From assembly GCA_947643145.1 (NCBI GenBank), contig CANRVD010000031.1:1-34156 (forward strand): a stretch of 34,156 nt of DNA. Reading direction: 5' to 3'. Under the pieces are notes generated by a model. The model was given only the letters and a program-made list of their open reading frames with translations, was not told the origin of the DNA and did not search any database. Origin of the DNA: an uncultured bacterium (GTDB lineage Bacteria > Bacillota > Clostridia > Lachnospirales > Lachnospiraceae). The position numbers and the translations under genes were made by a program. Shown here in pieces: positions 7,516 through 13,417 of this stretch (its first letter is position 1; each line of letters begins with the position of its first letter).

Positions 7516-9378
7516 TCAGACCACATCCATAAACAGCATTTCTATCATTTCCTCTGTTGTACGTCTTCTGGCATCTCTTTCTTTTTCCTGTTCCTTTTTC
7601 TCAACTTTTTCCAAACGCGCCTCCTGCTCTTCTCTTACAGCTTCCTGAACCGAATCAAACTTCCTGATTAGCTGTTCCCATTCCTTTTCTGTAAAAGACG
7701 CTGCTCCTATCGGATAAGAAGTCTCTGGTTCTCCCTTTTTTATCCTTTCATAAAGCTCTTCTATTTTTTCTGCCAGCAGTTTCCTGTAATCTACTGTCTC
7801 TTCCTTGACATCTGAGACTTCTGAAAGATTTTCCAACTTCTTTATAAATGCTTTATAAAACGCCCTCTCCCTGTTAATTGCCCTCTTCTCTTCTGCTGAC
7901 TTTCCTGTTGTATCAGACAGTGGATGTTCTAACTGGTATAATGCGGTTTTTGCTGCCTGTAACGCAGATTCCACAGAATCTCCTAAGACATCGGCAGAAT
8001 TTTCCCCGTCATTGTACCACTTCATAATACGCATAACCATCATTTGTGATATATGTGTCAGCTTGCCGGAAAAGTCCATTCCCATGCCGTCCATTCCTAT
8101 TTCTTCTGCCGCTTCCATCCATGCCTTCCGCACTTCCTCTGCTGCATTCGGTGCAAAACGTGAAAATGCTTCATCCCGTTCCGTCTGTTCAGAAGCAACT
8201 TTTTCAAATAACTTCTGTAATGCGCCTTTTACTTCAAAATTTTGATAGTTCGCCAGCCTTTCCTGCCAGTTTATCTTAGCACTGGTAAAATCTGACTGCG
8301 TCTCGGAGCCAAAGAAATCCGCCTGCCTTGCCTGGGAATAGACATTTTTATCTGTTCCTAACGTCCCCTGCTTCTCATGATGAAGTAAAAATGCAAACAT
8401 TTCTAACTCTGTCGCATTTTCCGGATTAACGGTATTGACATAAATATAACGAATATCCTCACTTCCATCCTCTCCGGTAATATGTACTTCTATCACAGGA
8501 CTTTCTTTTGTGGAATCATTCGCATAGCGTGCATAGTAACTGCTCTTTCCGTCCATCGTCCCGCCTAGCCCCAGTATGCCGCTGCTTAGATTCCCAACTC
8601 TTACTTCTGCCTGAAACCGCCCGTTCTCTGTTTCCAGATACTTGTTTTTGCCATTCTTATCAAGCACATAGTTATTCAGCGCATTATAAATATTTGTCCA
8701 CTTATGGTAACTCTCCATATCTCCCGAATTCCATGTTTTATCCCTTTCAGCGCTTATTTCCGATAATCTGTCGGCACAACTCTCCTCGTCATAGAACGAA
8801 AAAAATGTCCACAGAAGTTTCTTACAGTTCTGACTCTGCTCATATACACCTGCTGCTTCGTAGTCATATCCCATTTTACCAATAATATCCATCCAATTCC
8901 GTTTTCCTGTTAAAAACTCATTATAATCTGACAATGGTAAAATATAACCATTCTGCTCAGCATTCATGGCATATGCCTTCATCTTCTGATAAGAGCCATA
9001 TGTCCCGCCATCTGAAATTCCCTTATCATCTGCATAGCTTAACAATGCAAACATCTCCAGCTCTGATGCATTTTCTGGATTCACTTCTTTGATGGCAACT
9101 TTGTAAGACACCTCCTTCCCGCCATAATTTGATGTGACCTGTACAACTGGATTTTCTTCTGTAGATTCTTTCGCATACCTTGCACTCATTCCATATGTTA
9201 TGCCATTGTACTCATATGGAATCATAGTAAGGCCAATGACATCACTATCATTTTGTTCTTCCGTACATTCTGCAGCAGAAGAAATGCCCTGATAGAACTC
9301 TTCCACTGACATTTGGTTCTGCTTGTTCCTGGCATATCCTAATTCAGAATAACCAGCCTGCAATGCTCCTATTGCCAT
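7516..9378 (-). CDS. Unknown 620-aa protein with an internally duplicated domain
   Basis: I cannot assign a function. There is no signal peptide or membrane helix. Two copies of an approximately 80-residue unit are visible, near residues 58-135 and 278-360. Both contain ARYA..ST.E.PV..V and then VNPENA(S/T)ELEMFA(L/F)L, a very regular shared core. The C-terminal third is helical and charged; residues from about 540 have SFTEKEWEQLI followed by a long Glu/Lys/Arg coiled-coil ending TEEMIEMLFMD. The shape suggests a cytosolic or non-classically exported structural protein; this is inference. The start has GAAAGGAGAG just upstream. It is a monocistronic unit with a clear terminator downstream and a hairpin-rich region upstream. 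Confidence 0.75.
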   Translation of the reverse strand: MAIGALQAGYSELGYARNKQNQMSVEEFYQGISSAAECTEEQNDSDVIGLTMIPYEYNGITYGMSARYAKESTEENPVVQVTSNYGGKEVSYKVAIKEVNPENASELEMFALLSYADDKGISDGGTYGSYQKMKAYAMNAEQNGYILPLSDYNEFLTGKRNWMDIIGKMGYDYEAAGVYEQSQNCKKLLWTFFSFYDEESCADRLSEISAERDKTWNSGDMESYHKWTNIYNALNNYVLDKNGKNKYLETENGRFQAEVRVGNLSSGILGLGGTMDGKSSYYARYANDSTKESPVIEVHITGEDGSEDIRYIYVNTVNPENATELEMFAFLLHHEKQGTLGTDKNVYSQARQADFFGSETQSDFTSAKINWQERLANYQNFEVKGALQKLFEKVASEQTERDEAFSRFAPNAAEEVRKAWMEAAEEIGMDGMGMDFSGKLTHISQMMVMRIMKWYNDGENSADVLGDSVESALQAAKTALYQLEHPLSDTTGKSAEEKRAINRERAFYKAFIKKLENLSEVSDVKEETVDYRKLLAEKIEELYERIKKGEPETSYPIGAASFTEKEWEQLIRKFDSVQEAVREEQEARLEKVEKKEQEKERDARRRTTEEMIEMLFMDVV

Positions 9379-10448: not shown

Positions 10449-11063
10449 CTAATTTCTCTGTTTTTTAGGAAAAGCAGCTTTAAATCCATCTTTCCAAAAG
10501 CCTTTTTTCTGCTTTTCCGCCTTTTCCTCCATCTCCTCAAAGGTTTCCCTATACTTTCCGTTCGGAGAATAATATGCCGCTCTGGCATATCCATTCATCA
10601 CCAATGTCTGATTCAGCATGATGTAGTCATTTTCCTGATCTTTCAGATATACATATGCCAAAAGCCTGCCATACCTGTCCTGTTTTTCTTTATCAAACTC
10701 CAAATATACTGTCTCATTCGTAAGTAATTTCTTGGTATATGCGCTTGCCTTGTCCCCCCATTTTACATTACTGTCCTTATCATTTGATACACTTTCCGGC
10801 GTGTCAACGCCAATCAGCCTCACCTTCGTGTCCTCCCCATTATAATCAATCACAAAAGTGTCTCCGTCTACTACCCGTTCTACCTGATAGCCATTTTCTG
10901 CAACAGAATCCTGCGGCATAGCCGAATCTTCTGGTAAGAACGGTTTTAAAATATCTTCTCCAATACTTAGGGCAACCGCCACAATGATTAGAACAATACT
11001 TGCCCCAAGTGCTTTTATCCTTCTTTTTACTTTCCGTTTCAGTTTCTTCTCCATAGATTCCAT
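10449..11063 (-). CDS. Membrane-anchored thermonuclease (SNase family)
   Basis: A 204-aa staphylococcal-nuclease-like enzyme expected to cut DNA or RNA outside the cell. An N-terminal basic stretch precedes one membrane segment (about 18-36), then the SNase fold covers 58-200. The catalytic residues align: D68 in VDGDTF, R82, D87, T88 and E90 in VRLIGVDTPES, and R133 in DRYGRLLAYVY. The start at 11063 follows AGGCAGGA; a longer frame to 11156 has no ribosome site and a Cys-rich, implausible N-terminus. It is the first gene of a two-gene unit with the hydrolase. Likely role: nutrient or biofilm DNA degradation at the surface. Confidence 0.9.
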   Translation of the reverse strand: MESMEKKLKRKVKRRIKALGASIVLIIVAVALSIGEDILKPFLPEDSAMPQDSVAENGYQVERVVDGDTFVIDYNGEDTKVRLIGVDTPESVSNDKDSNVKWGDKASAYTKKLLTNETVYLEFDKEKQDRYGRLLAYVYLKDQENDYIMLNQTLVMNGYARAAYYSPNGKYRETFEEMEEKAEKQKKGFWKDGFKAAFPKKQRN

Positions 11064-11183
11064 ATGTATCCTGCCTTTCTGTGAAATCTGCCACAATTCA
11101 TTCCTATTACCCCGGCATTTAATACTGCAAACCAAACACAGGTTTGCTTTGCACAAATATCACTATATTCTATTCTTCTGCAT

Positions 11184-11223
11184 AAGTCAATAACCCCGCT
11201 GCAAGCAGCGGGGTTATTGACTT
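11184..11223. terminator. Perfect 40-base inverted repeat, T-run on the plus strand
   Basis: Nineteen bases on each side (AAGTCAATAACCCCGCTGC and its complement) pair perfectly around two bases. The T6 tract lies on the plus side (11222-11227), but the genes on both sides are on the minus strand. It may act as a bidirectional terminator after the serpin gene, or stop an antisense transcript. Confidence 0.75.
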
Positions 11224-11246: not shown

Positions 11247-12866
11247 TTAATTCATTTCATTCACCACTCCTGCAAAAACAGGTATCCCATAATAGGAATC
11301 ACCTATCACAAAAAGAAATGGCCGATTACAATCCACCGTATATTTTTTCTTCGTCATCCCGGCACCACACCGTAAACCTACCTCCGTATAAGATGCCACG
11401 CTACAGCCAATTTCATCCACTGCTACCTTGGAAGCCTGCACTACCTTATCTGCATAAAGTTTATACTCATCCTCTTTCTCTTCCCCGACAAGGCGTGTAA
11501 AATCTGCGTCATTAGCATCAAATAAATTTTTCACCCCCATCTTTTTCATAGCAGGAATCAAATCAACTTCTCCTGTTTCAATCTGAAATTTAGGCAGCTT
11601 TATGGTTACCTCTGCATATTCGCCATCTTTATCGCTATTTGTATGATCAGAAACGATATGCAGGACATCTTCCATATCCTTTTCCAGCATCTCATCCACC
11701 GTTACTCCCTCATTTGGCAGAAAAATCCACATAGACTTCCGGTTTTCAAATCCAATCGATACCGATGTAAAATCCTTTTTCCTGCAAATATACAAAGAAT
11801 CATCTACCCGCTTCATAAAATCGCATTCCGTCTGACTTCCATCTGCATTATAGAAAACCGCACTTTTCGTAAACTCTTTTGAAAAAGGGGTTATCCACTG
11901 GTCATAAAAATATGCCGTCGATAATAATACAGCCGCTGTATCCTTTTCCGTCTCAATCCCCTCTGCCTGCTTCTTTAAAGCATCTCCAGTCATATCGTTT
12001 ACCCAGTTCTGGATTTCCGAATCCATTGCCGTTGTTCCCATTTCTCCCTGATAGGTTGAAGCATAGTAGTTATCTGAGACGGTCTTTAAAATTTCCTTCT
12101 GAAAGGGAATATTCTGATTCAGCCAAATGGAATTTCCCAAAGTACACTTTGATATCTCATTGTCCTCATATACTGTACTCCAAATCTTCTGACTCTGTTC
12201 CCGCACGGTTTTAATGCTATCCTGACCTAATGCTCCCAAAAGCTCTGACTGCGTTTCCCCTGATGTCATTTCTGTAAGCATCGCCATGCAAAGATAGAGA
12301 TTGATTGGGGAACACGCTGTATTTTCCTGTGTCTCCGAAATAAGCGTCCCTTTAAAAAACTCCTGATAAAAATTCTTCAGGCTTTTTAAGTAACTGCTGT
12401 CAGGCTCCCATCCTTCATCTTCAAGCCAGTCAACCTGTTCTGGATAACTAACAGACTGCACCTGATATACAGCAGCCCCTTGTTCGATAGAAGCCCCCCC
12501 CTTTGCGATTTTTGCTGTATCGGCATCTCCCTCCGGCAATTCCTGTCCGCCTTTCTTTGCATCGTATGCCAATTCCATATCCTGCTGCTTTTCTGCTGTA
12601 TTTAGCAGCTTTTTATCCTCTGCCCCAAAATGCACCTTCACATATACTATACTAACCAGCAGCACAATCACTGCTGCAGTGCCACAAAAAAGATATCCAG
12701 TCTTCCTCCGGTTTCTCCATATCCTTCCTCCTCCAAGAAGCAGCTTTATTTTCCCCTCTCCTGCTTCCTCGTTCCTCTCCTCTTCACCATACAGGCTATT
12801 TGCTGTATCCTGAATAAAATCCTCTCTTATATCCCCCAGCTTGTCAAAAAACTCTTTCCCTTTCAT
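11247..12866 (-). CDS. Membrane protein with extracellular serpin domain, probable anti-sigma partner
   Basis: A 539-aa single-pass protein. Residues 1-55 are cytosolic; the start MKGKEFFDKLGDIREDFI resembles the N-termini of clostridial proteins encoded next to ECF sigma factors. A positive patch (RIWRNRRK) precedes a membrane helix at about 57-79, giving an N-in, C-out topology. After a linker, a serpin fold fills about 155-539, with SPINLYLCMAMLTEM near its start and RPFLFVI...GIPVFAGVVNEM at its end. The reactive-loop hinge is E485-I-G487-C488-SVASY: the P17 Glu and P15 Gly are kept, but P14 is Cys and P12-P9 are not small. The loop is about four residues longer than in alpha-1-antitrypsin, so P1 cannot be fixed. 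The gene overlaps the sigma gene (ATGA). Inhibitory activity is uncertain. Confidence 0.85.
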   Translation of the reverse strand: MKGKEFFDKLGDIREDFIQDTANSLYGEEERNEEAGEGKIKLLLGGGRIWRNRRKTGYLFCGTAAVIVLLVSIVYVKVHFGAEDKKLLNTAEKQQDMELAYDAKKGGQELPEGDADTAKIAKGGASIEQGAAVYQVQSVSYPEQVDWLEDEGWEPDSSYLKSLKNFYQEFFKGTLISETQENTACSPINLYLCMAMLTEMTSGETQSELLGALGQDSIKTVREQSQKIWSTVYEDNEISKCTLGNSIWLNQNIPFQKEILKTVSDNYYASTYQGEMGTTAMDSEIQNWVNDMTGDALKKQAEGIETEKDTAAVLLSTAYFYDQWITPFSKEFTKSAVFYNADGSQTECDFMKRVDDSLYICRKKDFTSVSIGFENRKSMWIFLPNEGVTVDEMLEKDMEDVLHIVSDHTNSDKDGEYAEVTIKLPKFQIETGEVDLIPAMKKMGVKNLFDANDADFTRLVGEEKEDEYKLYADKVVQASKVAVDEIGCSVASYTEVGLRCGAGMTKKKYTVDCNRPFLFVIGDSYYGIPVFAGVVNEMN

Positions 12867-13417
12867 AGATATCCTCCCCTCTCAAGCTGCGCTTTTAAAT
12901 CCTTCCGCATACGAAACAGCGCACTTTTCACCTTGCTTTCACTGATACCATACCTGCCTGCAATCTCCCCTATTGATGCCGCAAAATAGTACCGCGCCAA
13001 AAAAATTCTCCTCTGCTGAACCTTTTTCCCCTCTAGAAACCGATTAATTTCTTCCAGCAGTTCTTTTGTCCATAGCGCATCTTCAACCTGTTCCAGAGAA
13101 GCAACTGTTTCCTCTAACTCTTCAAAAATCCCCTCAATTTCCCCGCCCCTCTTCTGTGCATGGTTATATGCATAACGGTTCAAAGCCAGATTTTTCACTA
13201 CCCTGCATAGATATGGCAAAAGTGGTAACGGACGTTTTGGCGGTATGCTGTTCCATAAACTCAGATAGCCGTCATTTTCGCATTCTTCCGCATCCTGTCT
13301 GTTATTCAGGATATTAAAGGCAACCTGATAACAAAGCTTTCCATACTGCTTTTGTAAAATTTGAATCGCTTCCTCCTTCCTCTGCCAAAACAAATCTATA
13401 ATTTCTTCCTCCCTCAT
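12863..13417 (-). CDS. ECF-type RNA polymerase sigma factor
   Basis: A 184-aa sigma-70-family protein with only regions 2 and 4, as in extracytoplasmic-function sigmas. Region 2 covers about 10-85 (YGKLCYQVAFNILNNRQDAEEC, then PYLCRVVKNLALNRY). Region 4 covers about 125-175 with the helix-turn-helix IGEIAGRYGISESKVKSALFRMRKDL. GGAGGTGG precedes the ATG at 13417. Its stop codon overlaps the start of the serpin gene, so the two proteins are translationally coupled. The likely model is that the serpin protein holds this factor at the membrane until an extracellular signal arrives. The sigma probably drives its own promoter in the 13418-13756 gap, but I could not identify the promoter by eye. Confidence 0.9.
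   Translation of the reverse strand: MREEEIIDLFWQRKEEAIQILQKQYGKLCYQVAFNILNNRQDAEECENDGYLSLWNSIPPKRPLPLLPYLCRVVKNLALNRYAYNHAQKRGGEIEGIFEELEETVASLEQVEDALWTKELLEEINRFLEGKKVQQRRIFLARYYFAASIGEIAGRYGISESKVKSALFRMRKDLKAQLERGGYL

Follow-up and report, generated by a model that had tools for sequence, protein, structure and literature searches.

How gut bacteria, which live among host and microbial proteases, notice proteolytic activity is a question to which a limited literature search turned up no answer. A locus from an uncultured bacterium of the Lachnospiraceae gives this question a concrete form. In a 34,156-nucleotide stretch of DNA (contig CANRVD010000031.1 of assembly GCA_947643145.1; hereafter the window), a gene for an extracytoplasmic function (ECF) sigma factor overlaps the gene for a single-pass membrane protein whose outer part is a serpin (11247..13417, minus strand). 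Does this protein control the sigma factor and, if so, does its serpin report on proteases? From comparison with related proteins, we consider an anti-sigma role for the window protein to be highly likely. Given that role, protease sensing is plausible by analogy with the anti-sigma factor RsiV, which is both a receptor for and an inhibitor of lysozyme, and we judge a protease signal slightly more likely than not.

The TGA codon of the sigma gene and the ATG codon of the serpin gene, both on the minus strand, share the bases ATGA at 12863-12866, exactly as an earlier note on this DNA had described. The sigma gene (12863..13417) encodes 184 residues that match Sigma70_r2 (1.6e-8) and Sigma70_r4_2 (2.8e-9) in Pfam, both above cut-off, and TIGR02937 in NCBIfam (9e-21; 74.2 bits versus a cut-off of 42.9); regions 2 and 4, the lack of region 3 and a length near 180 residues are the features of an ECF sigma factor. 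The second gene (11247..12866, minus strand), defined by the open-reading-frame list, Pfam and a match to a structural relative, encodes a serpin-bearing putative anti-sigma factor of 539 residues. From its N-terminus, and still on the minus strand, this protein consists of a cytosolic module that is the putative sigma-binding part (residues 1-57; 12696..12866), a transmembrane helix (residues 58-76; 12639..12695; Kyte-Doolittle hydrophobicity 2.41), a polar extracellular tether (residues 77-162; 12381..12638) and a serpin domain (residues 163-536; 11259..12380), and the earlier proposal of a short cytosolic part, a helix and a serpin in that order therefore stands. The serpin domain, assigned by PF00079 (5.7e-62) and by alignment to tengpin, covers profile positions 3-368 of 370, identifying a full-length member of the serpin superfamily; tengpin (2pee) is its best solved relative by sequence (2.4e-33). 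The helix is the only hydrophobic segment within the first 150 residues, and the 57 residues ahead of it are far more than the n-region of a signal peptide. No lipobox was flagged by the lipobox rule, and the window protein lacks a signal peptide whose cleavage could detach the serpin from its anchor, an outcome that the note had entertained. A sigma-coupled gene, a cytosolic N-terminus, a single transmembrane segment and an outside part make up the layout of a membrane anti-sigma factor, and all are present here, in what is the sole serpin found in a genome that is ~84% complete.

Does the pairing recur? Our evidence is comparative and comes from draft genomes and contigs of metagenome-assembled genomes, read with crude transmembrane and lipobox rules; we call a serpin coupled when an ECF frame lies directly upstream on the same strand at a gap of -30 to +80 nucleotides. 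Of 28 genomes in the genus, 17 (that of the window among them) contain a relative of the window protein, and six sigma-coupled serpins are spread across five genomes. In addition to the window pair, these are L004 (genome G003), whose sigma factor is 72% identical to that of the window and overlaps by the same ATGA, L022 and L008 (both in G026), L007 (G019) and L016 (G027), the last of which is cut by a contig end and left out of full-length counts. Within the family, sigma matches at E<=0.001 occur in 233 of 299 genomes, many of them weak, and PF00079 matches in 140 of 397. The family sample took the best 150 places by Pfam score, minus one at a contig end, and was biased against window-like serpins, as the window scores 211.7 bits and the last listed places 213.4-213.7. 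Adding the loci from the genus and a small number of others brought the total to 176 distinct serpin frames, nearly all from the genus or family, of which 166 are full length. At least 23 of these 166 serpins are coupled, 11 with an exact -4 overlap, and such counts are lower bounds, as a second pair in genome G351 (L255) appeared later, outside the listed places. At an assumed background of 1%, the binomial probability of finding at least 22 of 166 is 4e-18, and the adjacency of ECF and serpin genes is beyond chance. A class-wide search gave matches in 177 of 391 genomes, and among the 30 loci examined, the window's own included, were coupled pairs in three other families (L213, L215 and L238). 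Conservation of the pair, on which the earlier note had made its proposal depend, thus extends through the genus and family to three further families, and the serpin-bearing anti-sigma layout is apparently widespread.

What distinguishes the coupled serpins is their N-terminus. A transmembrane segment preceded by at least 25 residues is found in 22 of the 23 coupled serpins versus 7 of the 143 uncoupled ones (Fisher 2e-20), at least 600 nucleotides of upstream sequence being at hand for 136 of the latter. The exception is L153, a signal-peptide serpin located between its sigma gene and the module-bearing L154; L154 is itself one of the seven uncoupled proteins with a long N-terminus, and the remaining six are, by reading, without the module. 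A ‘lipoprotein’ label on L185 results from a false lipobox inside its transmembrane segment. In most coupled proteins, a pattern like LFDAIGxIDDxLIEEA is followed by a basic stretch and the helix; the N-termini of L007/L008 and L070/L117 are unlike it. Similar modules are also attached to other outside domains. At 29 other loci found through the sigma factor (L034-L062), a partner gene starts at -4 in 22 cases and at another short gap in five, with none in two; these partners are non-serpins with N-termini that resemble the module pattern by eye, and a Pfam search of 34 such partners returned DUF4349 in two, RsgI_M in one, PepSY in one and a few weak others. In the window's own genome, there are ten other sigma matches, and all four of the paralogues fetched show the module. 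Because the module is also found after related sigma genes, there joined to other outside domains and in the window's own genome too, residues 1-57 very probably constitute the anti-sigma part, with the serpin as one swappable ectodomain; the likeness to anti-sigma partners that the note had remarked in the cytosolic part is one that partners of related sigma factors share.

Sigma and module distances are correlated, as expected of partners (Mantel r 0.41, p 2e-4), in 53 pairs selected to combine a strong sigma match with a transmembrane segment that follows at least 24 residues, and the Mantel values carry shared species history, which was not removed. That history is one caution against the partnership we favor; the correlations of sigma with serpin-part distances (r 0.55) and of module with serpin distances (0.19, p 0.07) are another. 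A more radical alternative is that the N-terminus is a mere anchor and the overlap an accident of operon layout, with no functional link between the two proteins. Such a view would fit the lack, in Pfam and NCBIfam, of any anti-sigma family that matches the window protein, and the absence of the zinc motif HxxxCxxC from the first 120 residues of all 27 serpin-type proteins. Zinc, however, is not needed for class I anti-sigma factors in general, according to the accessible part of PMC7406223. The pairing is repeated in 23 of 166 serpins as well as in other families, and the module is common to partners of related sigma genes, which makes a purely accidental arrangement very improbable.

As an ectodomain, the serpin was probably gained or lost repeatedly. 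In a FastTree tree of the 166 serpin cores, there are at least 18 changes between anti-sigma-type serpins (n=23; the 22 coupled proteins with module and helix, plus L154) and other serpins, a count that comes from a quick, imprecise tree and combines gains with losses. Many tree neighbors are lipoproteins, some sharing a YPE linker motif, and the lipoprotein signal peptide and the module-plus-helix unit appear to have been exchanged between serpins. The note had regarded serpins as usually free and secreted, but 83 of the 143 uncoupled serpins in the family look like lipoproteins by the lipobox rule. Within the family, at least three unlike combinations of N-terminus and sigma factor occur (the main one, L007/L008 and L070/L117), and a fourth, L238, lies outside it. 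These combinations and the 18 or more changes suggest that the fusion has been selected repeatedly.

Could the serpin still trap a protease? Inhibitory serpins share a hinge motif with Glu at P17, Gly at P15, Thr or Ser at P14 and small residues from P12 to P9. In the window protein, the hinge and reactive-centre loop span residues 485-513 (11328..11414, minus strand), with P-numbers counted from the hinge glycine, so that E485 is P17, G487 is P15 and C488 is P14, and C513 stands directly ahead of NRPF. Hinges were found with a position-scored scan whose seeds were mostly anti-sigma-type, which favors finding hinges of that type; all 23 anti-sigma-type serpins and 139 of 143 others have Gly at P15, and P12-P10 fall within AGSTVI in 22 of 23 versus 136 of 143; for the stricter AGST, the numbers are 18 of 23 and 125 of 143. 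P14 is Cys in nine, Val in seven, Thr in six and Ala in one of the 23 anti-sigma-type serpins; among the 143 others, Thr (94), Val (26) and Cys (11) predominate. By these counts, the loop-insertion hinge appears mostly kept across anti-sigma-type serpins.

The same counts argue against a variant in which the anti-sigma factor uses its serpin as a non-inhibitory receptor, responding to another ligand or to the redox state of Cys488 and Cys513, with no protease trapped. Several features would nevertheless suit that variant and speak against protease trapping. First, the window hinge, in which P17 Glu and P15 Gly match the motif, fails the strict AGST rule at P12-P10, and because its P14 Cys, P12 Val and P9 Tyr are atypical, the inhibitory power of the serpin is uncertain. 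Second, L022, one of the coupled serpins, no longer has a reactive loop but keeps both cysteines, and therefore protease trapping would not be needed in every member. Third, Cys at P14 and Cys before [ND][RH]PF co-occur in the clade of the window serpin: of the 166 serpins, 12 have both, 8 only the first, 2 only the second and 136 neither, with 8 unmatched. A Cys488-Cys513 disulphide locking the hinge is possible. However, the 12 two-Cys proteins are related sequences (the window serpin and 11 others, loop-degenerate L022 among them), and 7 of the 12 are uncoupled. On balance, we think a non-inhibitory receptor unlikely. An AlphaFold2 model of the window protein from a six-sequence alignment, with a predicted local distance difference test score (pLDDT) of 40.1 and a predicted template modeling score (pTM) of 0.38, supports no claim and lends nothing to our own interpretation.

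We propose, as an evenly balanced proposition, that the window protein is a membrane anti-sigma factor whose serpin serves as a bait or inhibitor ectodomain and that the sigma factor is freed by regulated proteolysis. The cytosolic module would hold the ECF sigma factor encoded directly upstream, and to serine proteases outside the cell, of host or microbial origin, the tethered serpin would be bait and inhibitor at once. As long as the serpin is intact, the anti-sigma factor would be stable and the sigma factor off. Trapping of a protease, or an excess of proteases over available serpins, could expose the tether, or else the complex, to a site 1 cut; an M50 site-2 protease would then cut the helix, and degradation of the cytosolic module would free the sigma factor. 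Genes for M50 and S26 peptidases are present in the window's genome, as they are in 14 of 14 and 12 of 14 control genomes, respectively. The note had envisaged a serpin shape change signalled through the helix, a route weakened by two features of the architecture. The window protein has a tether of about 85-90 residues, and the others where the rule worked have one of 36-121 (leaving out L185, whose value of 9 is a regex artefact, and the unmeasured L154 and L255b), and because it is so long, mechanical signaling through the helix is less likely than regulated proteolysis. Moreover, the reactive loop is found close to the C-terminal end, and therefore its cleavage frees the serpin neither from the tether nor from the N-terminal anchor.

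Other observations weigh against our proposal. Under a lax rule, the 12 residues past the helix of the window protein contain no signal-peptidase-like site, and such a site is found in 22 of 27 serpin-type proteins; these counts, like that of AxA sites in the tether (14 of 27), are raw, without background, and we do not use them as support. Of the 23 upstream sigma frames, two score weakly (L107, 68 bits; L200, 30 bits in a 71-residue piece), and L003 in genome G005, a near homologue with a same-clade serpin, has neither sigma factor nor module. In addition, the upstream regions of 53 sigma genes yielded no shared promoter motif of which the window has a copy. Two candidate promoter motifs were set aside unused: AAC-N13-18-TGTC, present in 5 of 53 sigma upstreams versus a mean of 1.8 and a maximum of 6 in shuffles, with no AAC-spaced site shown for the window; and CTGTC with TA within the next 3 bases, present in 6 of 53 (5 of them serpin-type) versus 0.8 and a maximum of 3.

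One expected output of the freed sigma factor would be more serpin. Thirteen further serpins (L079, L085, L092, L097, L103, L106, L111, L125, L126, L134, L141, L178 and L194) lie 632-1348 nucleotides behind an ECF gene, and in 11 of these cases there is room for one partner gene overlapping the sigma gene (L106 and L178 are unclear; L134 was judged from L062); such distant serpins may be sigma targets. In genome G029 (L264:2936-6661), an ECF sigma gene, a signal-peptide serpin and a serpin with the anti-sigma module stand in a row. Because serpins trail ECF genes in this manner, one may reasonably guess that the output restocks inhibitors. The same arrangements would also be expected if the serpin were cargo, with the fusion anchoring an inhibitor whose dosage is fed back through its own sigma factor and with a general envelope cue at the tether or helix as the signal; many same-clade uncoupled serpins are likewise anchored lipoproteins or bare-transmembrane proteins. 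Reuse of the serpin ectodomain by unlike sigma and N-terminal types is more simply explained by sensing, and we regard cargo as a minor though real prospect. No common third gene was seen by eye in 20 neighborhoods, where families were not scanned. Returning to a serpin that senses proteases, we suggest more tentatively, and with somewhat less than even confidence, that Clostridia repeatedly made surface serpins into one-shot protease sensors in which the inhibitor is the fuse, its consumption releases the sigma factor and the response restocks inhibitors.

Around the window pair, a perfect inverted repeat with two 19-base arms and a 2-base loop lies 3' of the serpin gene (11184..11223, strand not assigned) and is a possible terminator; it was read from the sequence with its arms checked and is absent from a rule-based list that demands loops of 3-8 bases. 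Next after the pair and this repeat is a thermonuclease-like protein (10449-11156, minus strand; SNase 1.8e-27, NF047694 2.5e-48), and further along is a 620-residue protein (7516-9378, minus strand) to which neither Pfam nor NCBIfam assigns a family with a useful score. Elsewhere, L255:1912-6512 (G351) carries two sigma/anti-sigma-serpin pairs in tandem, with overlapping genes within each, and L030:3848-7996 (bacterium D16-51) carries three anchored serpins in tandem that are kin of the window serpin and lack the anti-sigma module. At L216, from the class-wide search, a serpin with the module is preceded, by eye, only by a sigma-like tail that reads into the overlap. The sigma-coupled serpin at L070:700-2850 is followed by a repeat region, and a long extra C-terminus belongs to it; one of 23 aligned serpin-type proteins has a BspA-type LRR_5 match (1.2e-58).

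The sigma/anti-sigma layout itself is known, and a serpin as the sensor class would be the new element. No report of a serpin/anti-sigma fusion was found in the literature searched, which is weak evidence of absence, as most subscription papers lay outside the search. In their accessible portions, PMC10059941, PMC3413522, PMC3990059 and PMC12484212 treat serpins and anti-sigma factors separately, and in the available main text of a serpin phylogeny (PMC8233489) the words sigma and fusion occur 0 times. The siropins of one gut Eubacterium act as inhibitors of human neutrophil elastase and proteinase 3 (PMC8201313, in the part available). If our proposal is correct, a serpin on an anti-sigma factor would be a direct, genetically testable answer to how gut bacteria notice proteases. 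The fusion also offers a ready reporter, in that sigma-dependent promoters would provide a read-out of protease attack.

CnrY is an example of a short class II anti-sigma factor. Class II, a group named in the accessible part of PMC7406223, has a short cytosolic sigma-binding segment, as the window protein is proposed to have; the resemblance is, so far, one of layout and not of sequence. Cellulosomal serpins such as C. thermocellum PinA are, like the window serpin, clostridial and brought to the cell surface through an extra module, and are said to guard against subtilisin-like proteases; by contrast, they are attached via the cellulosome, and no tie to a sigma factor appears in the portion of PMC12484212 available. 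The Group T serpins (siropins, miropin, tengpin and the Bifidobacterium serpin), said in the available part of PMC8233489 to include Lachnospiraceae, share the fold, with tengpin as the best solved match, but are described as inhibitors, whereas in the window the domain is joined to a cytosolic module in a protein encoded directly after a sigma factor. RsgI anti-sigmaI factors of cellulolytic clostridia also combine a cytosolic sigma-binding part, one transmembrane segment and varied sensory ectodomains, and one of our 34 partners carries RsgI_M; RsgI, however, pairs with sigmaI and senses polysaccharides (PMC6056542 and PMC3413522, as far as accessible), whereas the window pairs an ECF factor with a serpin.

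A close parallel in proposed function is the sigmaV-RsiV system of Bacillus subtilis, also present in Clostridioides difficile (PMC9044953, available part), in which an ECF sigma factor is co-transcribed with a single-pass anti-sigma factor bearing an enzyme-binding, inhibitory ectodomain. According to the accessible parts of PMC5014341 and PMC6066255, RsiV binds lysozyme in the active site of the enzyme, inhibits it and becomes a substrate first of signal peptidase and then of RasP. In the window system the signal and the cuts are putative, and the ectodomain is a serpin instead of RsiV domains: RsiV, DUF4179 and lysozyme-binding domains gave no match to the window protein at E 0.1, and among 23 proteins DUF4179 reached 0.069 in one. 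Activation may also differ from the RsiV/RsiP-like route, as the lax rule places no signal-peptidase site within 12 residues past the transmembrane segment of the window protein. If the window serpin does sense proteases, the idea behind RsiV, an enzyme inhibitor doubling as a receptor, would extend from lysozyme to proteases and define a class of bacterial protease receptor in which the irreversible transition of the serpin is the switch.

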